From assembly GCF_014251255.1 (NCBI RefSeq), contig NZ_CP059182.1:434001-498000 (forward strand): a stretch of DNA of 64,000 nt, written 5' to 3'. The notes beneath the pieces were generated by a model. The model was not told the origin of the DNA. It searched no databases and saw only the letters and a list, made by a program, of their open reading frames with translations. The position numbers and the translations under genes are program-made. The stretch is from Blattabacterium cuenoti. GTDB taxonomy: Bacteria > Bacteroidota > Bacteroidia > Flavobacteriales > Blattabacteriaceae. This document shows positions 1-14,873 of this stretch, in pieces (positions within the stretch are counted from its first letter, which is position 1; every line of letters starts with the position of its first letter).

Positions 1-1314
1 TTTAAGAAAACTAGAAATATTTTTTTTACTTTTGTTTTTTATAGCTATTCTATATTTAGTAATACAAATCTTATAAAGTGCTTTTTCTTTTAAAATACTT
101 TTAGGAAAATCATTTATGAAATGATTTAAAGAAAACAAAGCGGCATAATCCTTATGCATAAGAAAATACAGATTCGCTATATAATAATCTTTCTTTTCAA
201 GTTTTTTCAACAATTTATTTAATAGAATATCTATTTTCTTTCTTTTAGAACTATTTGGAAATTCTAGAATAAATTGATTTAGCAAATCAATAGCCATATG
301 AATATTTTTCTGATCTAAATTAAAATTTAATGAAGAAAGATAATAATTGAACCCCTTTTTAAAAGAATCATTTTCTATAGATTTTTCTTCTTTTAGTTCT
401 GAATCTGAATATGGATATTTCTTTTTTAAGAAAATTTTTATTTTTTTAAGAAAACTTTTACTTTTTGATTTTTCTTCTTTTAGTTCTGAATCTGAATTCA
501 GAAAACTTTTACTTTTTGATTTTTCTTCTTTTAGTTCTGAATCTGAATTCAGAAAACTTTTACTTTTTGATTTTTCTTCTTTTAGTTCTGAATCTGAATT
601 CAGAAAACTTTTACTTTTTGATTTTTCTTCTTTTAGTTCTGAATCTGAATTCAGAAAACTTTTACTTTTTGATTTTTCTTCTTTTAGTTCTGAATCTGAA
701 TTCAGAAAACTTTTACTTTTTGATTTTTCTTCTTTTAGTTCTGAATCTGAATTCAGAAAACTTTTACTTTTTGATTTTTCTTCTTTTAGTTCTGAATCTG
801 AATTCAGAAAACTTTTACTTTTTGATTTTTCTTCTTTTAGTTCTGAATCTGAATTCAGAAAACTTTTACTTTTTGATTTTTCTTCTTTTAGTTCTGAATC
901 TGAATTCAGAAAACTTTTACTTTTTGATTTTTCTTCTTTTAGTTCTGAATCTGAATTCAGAAAACTTTTACTTTTTGATTTTTCTTCTTTTAGTTCTGAA
1001 TCTGAATTCAGAAAACTTTTACTTTTTGATTTTTCTTCTTTTAGTTCTGAATCTGAATTCAGAAAACTTTTACTTTTTGATTTTTCTTCTTTTAGTTCTG
1101 AATCTGAATTCAGAAAACTTTTACTTTTTGATTTTTCTTCTTTTAGTTCTGAATCTGAATTCAGAAAACTTTTACTTTTTGATTTTTCTAAATTAAAAAA
1201 AGCATGCTTATTCTGTTTCTGTTTTATAAAACTATTATTAGTACATCCTGTTGGATGGAACAATAATAATATATTGAATACAAATAAAAACAATAAAAAA
1301 ACAATTTTTTTCAT
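1..1314 (-). CDS. bamD: BamD-like outer-membrane assembly lipoprotein with repeat-replaced N-terminal half (3' end outside window)
   Basis: Minus-strand frame open from ATG at 1314 to the left edge (438 codons). Residues 1-23 are a lipoprotein signal peptide ending in lipobox HPTGC (Cys24). About 18 unique residues follow, then a partial and 14 complete copies of the 17-residue unit NSDSELKEEKSKSKSFL (to about residue 289). The last ~149 residues resemble the C-terminal half of Bacteroidota BamD: a TPR end (FLKKKYPYSD...), FNYYLSSLNFNLDQKN, then helical TPR pairs (AIDLLNQFILEFPNSS; DYAALFSLNHFINDFPKS). Usual BamD is about 260-280 residues and has N-terminal TPRs where the array lies. BamD is the essential periplasmic TPR partner of BamA in beta-barrel insertion. 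It starts 3 bp after the ferritin gene, in an operon with dapA. Family assignment comes from remembered motif order; only the last few dozen residues should be missing. Confidence 0.82.
   Translation of the reverse strand, partial: MKKIVFLLFLFVFNILLLFHPTGCTNNSFIKQKQNKHAFFNLEKSKSKSFLNSDSELKEEKSKSKSFLNSDSELKEEKSKSKSFLNSDSELKEEKSKSKSFLNSDSELKEEKSKSKSFLNSDSELKEEKSKSKSFLNSDSELKEEKSKSKSFLNSDSELKEEKSKSKSFLNSDSELKEEKSKSKSFLNSDSELKEEKSKSKSFLNSDSELKEEKSKSKSFLNSDSELKEEKSKSKSFLNSDSELKEEKSKSKSFLNSDSELKEEKSKSKSFLNSDSELKEEKSKSKSFLKKIKIFLKKKYPYSDSELKEEKSIENDSFKKGFNYYLSSLNFNLDQKNIHMAIDLLNQFILEFPNSSKRKKIDILLNKLLKKLEKKDYYIANLYFLMHKDYAALFSLNHFINDFPKSILKEKALYKICITKYRIAIKNKSKKNISSFLK
449..1189. repeat. 51-bp tandem repeat array (14 full copies plus 27 bp) inside bamD
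   Basis: Fourteen head-to-tail copies of a 51-bp unit lie at 449-1162, followed by a 27-bp partial copy to 1189. I see no differences between copies. Each carries one GAATTC site, at 494 and then every 51 bp to 1157. The unit length is a multiple of three, so the minus-strand bamD frame stays open. A 31-bp stretch just outside the array (380-410) is identical to part of the unit and probably marks the source sequence. There are no spacers, so this is a coding minisatellite and not a CRISPR array. Confidence 0.97.
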
Positions 1315-6176: not shown

Positions 6177-7451
6177 ATGGAATCTATCCATAAGATAAAA
6201 CAAAAATTTAATATTATTGGAAATGATTCTGCTTTGAATAGAGCTTTAGAAAAAGCAATTCAAATTGCTCCAACTGATATTTCAGTATTGATTCTTGGAG
6301 AAAATGGAGTTGGAAAAGAATTTATTCCAAAAATTATTCATTCTTTTTCTCACAGAAAACATTGTTCTTATATTACTGTAAATTGTGGAGCTCTTCCAGA
6401 AGGAACAATTGATAGTGAATTATTTGGACATGAAAAAGGTTCTTTTACAGGAGCTACAAGTATGAGAAAAGGTTATTTTGAAGTAGCAAACGGAGGAACA
6501 ATTTTTTTGGATGAAGTAGGAGAACTTCCTTTAACAACACAAGTACGTCTTCTTCGTATTTTAGAATCAGGAGAATTTATAAAAGTAGGGGCTTCTCAAG
6601 TACAAAAAACAAATTTTCGAGTAGTATCTGCCACTAATTCAAGTATGTCGGATTCTATTCAAAAAGGAAAATTTAGAGAAGATTTGTATTATCGTCTTAA
6701 CACAGTACAAATTATTGTTCCACCTTTAAGGTGTAGGAAAAATGATATTCAATTATTATTGAAAAAATTTTCAAATGATTTTTCTGAAAAATATCAAATG
6801 CCATCCATAAAATTTACTGAAGAATCTATGAAATATTTGGAAAATTATTCTTGGCCAGGAAATATAAGGCAATTAAAAAATCTTGTAGAACAAATATCTG
6901 TAGTAGAAACAAAACGAGAAATTTCTGTGGAAAAACTAAAAGAGTATATTCCAGAAAATATTCCTTCGTTATCTTTTCATCATTCAACAATAAATAACGA
7001 ATATTTTTTTAAAAATTTTTCTAATGAAAAAGATTTGGTTTATAAAGTTTTATTTGATATGCAAAAAAACTTTAATGACTTAAAAATTTTAACATTACAA
7101 TTGATAAAAAACAATAAAAATACTAATTTTATAGAAAATAATCAACAACTTATGGAAAAAGTATTCGGAAAAATGATTCATCATTCAGATTCAGATGACT
7201 CTCTTTTTCTAGAAGATTCTTCAAAATTATCCACTCATAATAACAATGATTTAGATTTTGAAGAAATAGAAGAAGATGATCACAATACATCTAAAAATAA
7301 AAAAAATTCTAATTTTTCTTTACAAAAGAAAGAAATAGAATTTATTCAAAAGGCTTTGATAAAAAATAGTGGAAAAAGAAAAATGACTGCAAAAGAATTA
7401 GGAATTTCAGAAAGAACATTATATAGAAAAATAAAACAATATGGATTGTAG
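6177..7451 (+). CDS. sigma54-dependent transcriptional activator lacking a receiver domain
   Basis: NtrC-class AAA+ activator. Walker A GENGVGKE near residue 40, the sigma54-contacting loop as GSFTGA near 87 (canonical GAFTGA), Walker B GGTIFLDEVGEL near 110, and a C-terminal Fis-type helix-turn-helix (TAKELGISERTLYRK near 404). There is no N-terminal response-regulator or GAF domain, so activity cannot depend on a conventional phosphorelay. ATG 6177 gives the usual Flavobacteria N-terminus (MESIHKIKQKF); an in-frame ATG at 6150 would add nine residues. The section between about 270 and 380 is acidic and variable. It overlaps lptE by 11 bp and precedes secG-groES-groEL, where a sigma54-like promoter is seen at 8395. 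The sigma54 gene itself is not in this window. Confidence 0.93.
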   Translation: MESIHKIKQKFNIIGNDSALNRALEKAIQIAPTDISVLILGENGVGKEFIPKIIHSFSHRKHCSYITVNCGALPEGTIDSELFGHEKGSFTGATSMRKGYFEVANGGTIFLDEVGELPLTTQVRLLRILESGEFIKVGASQVQKTNFRVVSATNSSMSDSIQKGKFREDLYYRLNTVQIIVPPLRCRKNDIQLLLKKFSNDFSEKYQMPSIKFTEESMKYLENYSWPGNIRQLKNLVEQISVVETKREISVEKLKEYIPENIPSLSFHHSTINNEYFFKNFSNEKDLVYKVLFDMQKNFNDLKILTLQLIKNNKNTNFIENNQQLMEKVFGKMIHHSDSDDSLFLEDSSKLSTHNNNDLDFEEIEEDDHNTSKNKKNSNFSLQKKEIEFIQKALIKNSGKRKMTAKELGISERTLYRKIKQYGL

Positions 7452-8034
7452 AAGACTTTTTTTTCTTATTATTTCATTTTTATTATTGAATAGTTGTTAC
7501 AAACCTCTTTATTCTAAACTAAATGAATACAAAAAAAAAATACAAATCAATGAATTTGTAGAACTTGTTAAGTTACCTTTTCATGGAGCAGGAAGTTACA
7601 TTTCTTATGATATTAAAAGAATGTTTGAAAATTATATAATAGATCATGGTCCTTTTAATTTAGCATTTAAAGAGGGAGGAGATATTGTTATAGGAGGAAA
7701 AATTGTAGACTATTCTATTATAGAAGGAGATGGAAAAAATCAAAAAATTAAAATAATAGTTCAAGCTTATTGTAAAGATATACGAAATTCAAAAAATAAT
7801 TGGAAAGAGGATTTTGAAATTATAGAAAATTTTCACGAAGAAAAAGATGCTTTGAATGAAGGTCCAATAAGAAATAAGATTGTAGTGAATTTAGTTGATC
7901 AATTGTATAAAAAAACAATTGAAGTAATGGATATAAATAGTAAAGAAAATGATGATGGGGAAAAAGTGAACTTATATGATGATGATAAGAATGAAGATGA
8001 TAATGAAAATGAAATGGAGTATTTTGAATTATGA
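7441..8034 (+). CDS. lptE: LptE-like lipopolysaccharide-assembly lipoprotein
   Basis: 197 residues with a signal peptide and lipobox LLNSC (Cys19). The position between the sigma54 activator and secG is that of LptE in Flavobacteria, and the length without its tail (about 165) fits. LptE plugs the LptD barrel that exports LPS to the outer membrane surface. Sequence conservation in this family is low, so the call rests on context, lipobox and size. The last 30 residues are strikingly acidic (DDGEKVNLYDDDKNEDDNEN...), unlike usual LptE. The start codon lies inside the end of the activator gene. Confidence 0.72.
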   Translation: MDCRRLFFLIISFLLLNSCYKPLYSKLNEYKKKIQINEFVELVKLPFHGAGSYISYDIKRMFENYIIDHGPFNLAFKEGGDIVIGGKIVDYSIIEGDGKNQKIKIIVQAYCKDIRNSKNNWKEDFEIIENFHEEKDALNEGPIRNKIVVNLVDQLYKKTIEVMDINSKENDDGEKVNLYDDDKNEDDNENEMEYFEL

Positions 8035-14480: not shown

Positions 14481-14873
14481 ATGTTTTTCATACTAATCCA
14501 ACAAAATCCTATAATAAATACTCTTTGGATGTTTGCATTAATTTTTATAGTTTTTTATTTCTTTATGATACGTCCTCAAATAAAAAAACAAAAAATTGAA
14601 AAAAAATTTCAAGAAAATATAAAAAAAGGAAATTATATAGTGACAAGTTCAGGTATTCATGGAAAAATTATAGAAATAACAAATAATTTTTTTGTATTAG
14701 AAACTATTATAGGAAAAATAAAATTAGAAAGAAATACTGTTTCTAAAGAATTAACTCAATTACGTTATGGAGACCTTGTAAAAAAAAATAAAGAAAAAGA
14801 AAAAAAAATAATAGAAAAAGAAAAAAAAATAATAGAAAAAGAAAAAAAAATAATAGAAAAAGAAAAAAAATAA
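14481..14873 (+). CDS. yajC: preprotein translocase accessory subunit YajC with repetitive tail
   Basis: 130 residues. One membrane helix (about residues 14-31) followed by FMIRPQIKKQKIEKKFQENIKKG and a small beta domain (NYIVTSSGIHGKIIEI...), typical of YajC, which works with SecDF. The conserved part ends near residue 100. Beyond it the protein is a tandem repeat of the heptad EKEKKII (three full copies and a partial), encoded by a 21-bp minisatellite. Normal YajC ends at about 90-110 residues, so the tail is an extension. It lies 11 bp before coaE. Confidence 0.93.
   Translation: MFFILIQQNPIINTLWMFALIFIVFYFFMIRPQIKKQKIEKKFQENIKKGNYIVTSSGIHGKIIEITNNFFVLETIIGKIKLERNTVSKELTQLRYGDLVKKNKEKEKKIIEKEKKIIEKEKKIIEKEKK
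14793..14870. repeat. 21-bp in-frame tandem repeat at the end of yajC
   Basis: Copies at 14793-14813, 14814-14834 and 14835-14855, and a 15-bp partial copy 14856-14870, then the stop codon. The unit is (G)A5GA9TAATA-like and contains only A, G and T. The period is a multiple of three, so copy-number change lengthens the Lys/Glu tail without a frameshift. Confidence 0.95.

Follow-up and report, generated by a model that had tools for sequence, protein, structure and literature searches.

A gene for a bamD/yfiO-type lipoprotein at the left edge of the analysed stretch of Blattabacterium cuenoti DNA (64,000 nucleotides, hereafter the window) carries a perfect tandem array with a period of 51 bp, and the question that this locus raises is where such an array came from. 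The first-pass annotation had proposed that a piece of the native TPR region next to the array was duplicated and then amplified in frame. The array's origin from the adjoining flank is well supported, and we consider it highly probable that the array is an in-frame minisatellite born in the linker of a truncated BamD, for which an 87-bp flank segment was duplicated, one copy was shortened by 36 bp and the 51-bp version was amplified. The proposed direction and the in-frame growth were thus upheld, while the source had to be reassigned from the TPR itself to the linker with the first helix turns.

The array lies on the reverse strand at 449-1189 (14.5 copies, 100% match in TRF, exact extent) and encodes the 17-residue unit KSKSFLNSDSELKEE plus a KS overlap; the copies stand head to tail, the period is a multiple of three and the frame is open throughout. 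Exact decomposition yields 14 complete 51-bp units, all identical, at 467-1180 on the same strand. The array is flanked by segment B (380-410, reverse strand), which encodes SDSELKEEKS and, as annotated, is identical to 31 bp of the unit; this 31-mer has 15 exact hits in the genome, one at 380 and the other 14 spaced 51 bp apart through the array, starting at 467. The identity is not due to chance: the longest exact match to the unit elsewhere in the window, outside 380-1189, is 13 bp, and in 500 first-order Markov samples of 300-448 it was at most 16. The rest of the flank had been described as diverged from the unit, which is only part of the picture, since 449-466 equals the 18 bp that follow in the unit and the real difference is 38 bp versus 2 bp. 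In coding order the flank consists of segment A (466-449, 18 bp, an exact match to the unit), segment X (KKIKIFLKKKYPY, 448-411, 38 bp, missing from the unit) and segment B (410-380, 31 bp), all on the reverse strand, and the unit consists of A, two bases (GA) and B, so that the 38 bp of X stand opposite 2 bp. The flank at 380-466 therefore contains 49 of the 51 bp of the unit, interrupted by 38 bp at 411-448, and the sequence from 1180 to 380 reads as fourteen 51-bp units followed by one 87-bp version with zero mismatches. The flank is a longer version of the unit, not a diverged fragment; 380-410 does belong to the source, but the source comprises the whole 87 bp at 380-466, and the unit is that version minus 36 bp.

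The host gene occupies 1-1314 on the reverse strand, crosses the left window edge and is complete in L074:2578-3969, where the ORF read beyond the window edge gives a protein of 464 aa. On the evidence of the ORF, PF13525 and Foldseek, it is best read as the bamD/yfiO-type lipoprotein gene of Blattabacterium, and its product is better called a truncated BamD orthologue than a full BamD. PF13525 matches from residue 331 with 32.7 bits, above its cut-off of 25. The TIGR03302 match (41.2 bits, E 1.3e-10) starts at residue 317, enters the model at position 110 of its 239, and lies under the cut-off of 81.4, which was not reached by the other five Blattabacterium proteins scanned either and was passed by the one free-living relative scanned (129.7). 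Of the five TPRs expected of BamD/YfiO, the N-terminal ones are absent from the array protein. When a profile of seven Blattabacterium proteins was searched against the PDB, BamD chains ranked first (best 9n2d_F, E 4.9e-21), and the alignments of the two best hits begin at chain residues 120 and 104, from which it follows that the N-terminal TPRs are missing. The C-terminal half has a TPR fold with AlphaFold pLDDT mostly above 90 and BamD chains as its best PDB hits; by Foldseek the predicted fold comes closest to the BamD chains of F. johnsoniae and B. thetaiotaomicron, the best hit being chain F of the F. johnsoniae BAM complex (E 1.4e-06). This retained TPR block corresponds to 1-379 on the reverse strand, as delimited by profile, AlphaFold and Foldseek. 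At the other end, a candidate lipoprotein signal peptide (residues 1-24, 1243-1314, reverse strand; predicted helix 2-19) places a putative lipid anchor at its last residue, Cys24, after a hydrophobic stretch, with the lipobox judged by eye. A ClfA match (NCBIfam) was rejected, as its 33 bits against a cut-off of 1150 reflect serine-rich composition. A small gene 3' of bamD, presumably rpoZ, is present in all 12 loci searched (10 from other genera, 2 from Blattabacterium) and had no match in Pfam, and dapA was found within the 1.5-kb flanks searched at 5 of the 12 loci, three of them in other genera. A promoter scan gave nothing beyond chance (11 found, 16.8 expected), and a search for a plasmid homologue found none.

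AlphaFold assigns nearly all of residues 23-291 a pLDDT below 50, with an array predicted to be almost structureless, and lets the well-folded block begin at about residue 311. SDSELKEEKS comprises residues about 302-312, at the start of the predicted helix 304-328, where the pLDDT of the block climbs from 69 to 94, and is N-terminal to both the TIGR03302 and the PF13525 matches. The motif had been placed inside the preserved TPR end; it instead forms the border between the linker and the first retained TPR helix.

The direction of the copying was assessed in 49 Blattabacterium genomes, searched whole and including the array genome (G000), a set whose other members are all more distant than conspecific or very closely related strains. 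The 31-mer, allowing up to 3 mismatches, occurs in none of the other 48, and an array without the motif in its flank, which would have spoken for the opposite direction, was found in none of the 49. A tree of five neighbouring proteins makes G000 and G054 sisters (0.997), joined by G008 (1.000). G054 has lost its linker together with the beginning of the TPR block, and this sister therefore cannot test the ancestry of SDSELKEE. Shuffles of the whole linker against those of the other relatives gave mixed results (G013 1/2000, G040 1/2000, G007 14/2000, G060 16/2000, G008 228/2000, G053 411/2000), after which X and B were tested separately. X shuffled alone reached the observed linker score in 0 of 2000 trials for G013, 1 of 2000 for G040 and 10 of 2000 for G007, three matches that belong to one clade and are not independent. 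For the remaining five of the eight linkers this comparison gives no clear sign of X, which is weak in G060 (99/2000) and not detectable in G053 (397/2000), G062 (497/2000), G051 (1150/2000) and G008 (1645/2000). From the matches in G013, G040 and G007 it follows that X is old and the unit a reduced form.

Segment B is lacking from the linkers of G007, G040 and G013, whereas the array-free G008 shows a likely counterpart, YSETKEEK, in the corresponding position (p 0.0218, 0.0034, 0.0188 and 0.015 for four lengths). Shuffling of the B stretch against three linkers only gave 45/5000 for G008, 246/5000 for G013 and 537/5000 for G060. An ancestral SDSELKEE is hence backed by G008 (p about 0.01) and not by the G007, G040 and G013 clade, where the motif is absent. 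The length of the protein adds a further point: without 14 x 17 aa the array protein would have 226 aa, and eight array-free relatives in its own clade and those next to it (G007, G040, G013, G060, G051, G053, G015 and G008) have 209-244 aa, counted from the second Met in G013; in these clades the proteins of G054 (177 aa) and G002 (183 aa) are shorter. The age of X, the B counterpart in G008 and the usual length without the array together favour the direction from flank to array. The reverse course, in which the motif at 380-410 is the last array copy and the 38-bp X was inserted later, would account for the identity of flank segments A and B with the unit, as expected of a terminal copy, and for the slightly better alignment of the G008 linker without X (32 versus 25). 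It leaves the X matches in the linkers of G013, G040 and G007 unexplained and has to contend with the likely counterpart of B in G008, and we regard it as decidedly improbable.

If the array grew out of its flank, the ancestral gene would have carried A-X-B, 87 bp long, immediately ahead of the first TPR helix that is retained. This segment may then have been duplicated in tandem, possibly through misalignment at the 9-bp sequence AGAAAAATC, which borders the array on its upstream side (1181-1189, reverse strand) and again, identically, at the end of segment B (380-388). It could be a misalignment site or a partial copy, and the relatives are too diverged at AGAAAAATC to separate the two. In a second step the copy closer to the signal peptide would have lost a net 36 bp of X, for which an imperfect 20-bp direct repeat within X and A (421-466, reverse strand, found by TRF) is a possible slippage site, and in a third, slippage or RecA-type unequal exchange would have multiplied the 51-bp version until 14 identical copies stood in a row. 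The original would survive at 380-466. The order of the first two steps is inferred, and a single template switch would lead to the same arrangement. RecA is encoded in all 49 genomes, so unequal recombination is possible. The linker probably tolerates such growth because BamD of this genus lacks the N-terminal TPRs and the stretch between anchor and TPR block varies freely, and a 51-bp step keeps the frame.

No difference was seen between the array copies, while NG86 dS to G054 amounts to 0.33-0.53 in five neighbouring genes. Our own estimate, from 801 bp unchanged, puts the age of the array below about 2% of the G054 split if the copies are neutral and not homogenised; the amplification is probably recent, or the copies are under homogenisation. 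The same uniformity could come from the assembler, with a real array whose copy number or perfect identity is artificial: the perfect repeat of 741 bp exceeds a short read, the array occurs in 1 of 49 genomes, and the copy number of 14 rests on one assembly. However, the frame is maintained across 14 copies, independent in-frame arrays occur in other genomes of the genus, and short-read assemblers usually collapse such arrays and do not expand them, all of which makes an artefact very unlikely.

Those independent in-frame arrays include two at the bamD C-terminus, KLLINNK in G004 (L092; 21 bp x 5.8) and NKT/NKP in G044 (L108; 9 bp x 21.4). Counting arrays with at least 3 copies, a period of 6 or more and 90% match, 3 of 6 fall in the bamD slot, which makes up 4.6% of the sequence (p 0.0017), or 2 of 5 without G000 (p 0.019), an enrichment that is post hoc and only suggestive. 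Elsewhere in the window, a YajC protein (ORF 14481-14873, PF02699, E 2.7e-23) has a second in-frame array (14780-14870, 21 bp x 4.4, IIEKEKK) at its C-terminus. In G010 (L121) an 18 bp x 6.6 array (SNSSSS) directly follows an N-terminal hydrophobic stretch, in a gene that adjoins a sigma-54-type regulator and occupies the place of the window ORF 7441-8034; we take the gene at this place to be LptE-like, and it had no match in Pfam.

The array stands in a gene that is eroding in Blattabacterium. The TPR profile matches 34 of 49 genomes, four of the 34 with stops inside the match, and found no bamD in the other 15, in 14 of which the ferritin gene and the small gene are 20-469 bp apart (787 in G047). 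This suggests that parts of the genus can do without bamD, or almost, although the gene is essential in E. coli. BamA was found in 48 of the 49 genomes, in five of these above the cut-off of the model. G017 has a BamD match and no BamA match. The TPR block shows an NG86 dN to G054 of 0.317 (dS 0.627), compared with 0.076-0.105 in five neighbours; it is under looser constraint, and constraint is still present.

This mixture of erosion and constraint bears on whether the array is of use to the cell, as a long flexible periplasmic chain linking the BamA-binding TPR block with its lipid anchor, a role that would be compatible with the origin proposed here. The kept frame, a linker predicted to be disordered next to a TPR block predicted to be well folded, the presence of BamA in 48 of 49 genomes and a TPR block dN below dS (0.317/0.627 to G054, 0.223/0.775 to G008) would fit a selected spacer, as might, by analogy, the altered stress tolerance that the available part of PMC3477136 attributes to tolA copy number in E. 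coli. Relatives nevertheless manage without the array, 15 of 49 genomes lack a bamD match, in dN to G054 bamD stands at about three to four times the level of its neighbours, and neutral growth accounts for the same facts, so that selection for length seems unlikely. Going further, it is conceivable, though doubtful, that BamD of the genus was rebuilt, with the substrate-handling N-terminal TPRs dropped, the BamA-binding TPRs kept and disordered linkers filling the gap, and that the 14-copy array, about 250 residues long, tethers the lipid anchor adjustably to the BAM complex, varying in length among symbiont populations.

Birth of an array in the linker, as favoured here, belongs to a kind of repeat growth that is already known, and its record is unusually clear. 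The birth of a coding array is rarely caught with its unmodified source still adjoining, and here a single gene holds the source, shortened and amplified versions next to each other, and array-free relatives can be compared with it, so the steps of duplication, shortening and amplification become testable. The setting is the small, shrinking genome of a cockroach endosymbiont in which RecA is kept and outer-membrane assembly is eroding. A literature search for Blattabacterium with BamD, in a collection without one main gene-loss study of the genus, found no paper, and for BamD with tandem repeats such an array appeared in no title among the matches listed; PMC4567559, in its available part, mentions tandem repeats only in general terms.

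Endosymbionts are already known to carry tandem arrays within genes for envelope proteins. According to the available text of PMC4389277, five of six species of Blochmannia, an endosymbiont of ants, have such arrays (81-102 bp, 4.4-6.5 copies) in tolA. Like the array described here, these are lineage-specific, lie in an envelope-protein gene of an insect endosymbiont and have a relative that lacks them, whereas gene and phylum differ, the arrays occur in five of six species and not in 1 of 49 genomes, and, as far as that text goes, an unmodified source segment is identifiable only in Blattabacterium. E. coli tolA, as presented in the accessible portion of PMC3477136, has an intragenic tandem repeat with 8-16 copies among strains, likewise an in-frame array in the connector between a membrane anchor and a C-terminal periplasmic domain. 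Its connector is helical, its functional effect has been shown and its RecA-dependent contraction measured, whereas the Blattabacterium array is known from sequence and predicted structure. With the BamD/YfiO proteins of other Bacteroidota (F. johnsoniae 9n2d, B. thetaiotaomicron 9hiv), the array protein shares the C-terminal TPR block in profile and fold; unlike in these, the N-terminal TPRs are replaced by a variable linker that contains the array.
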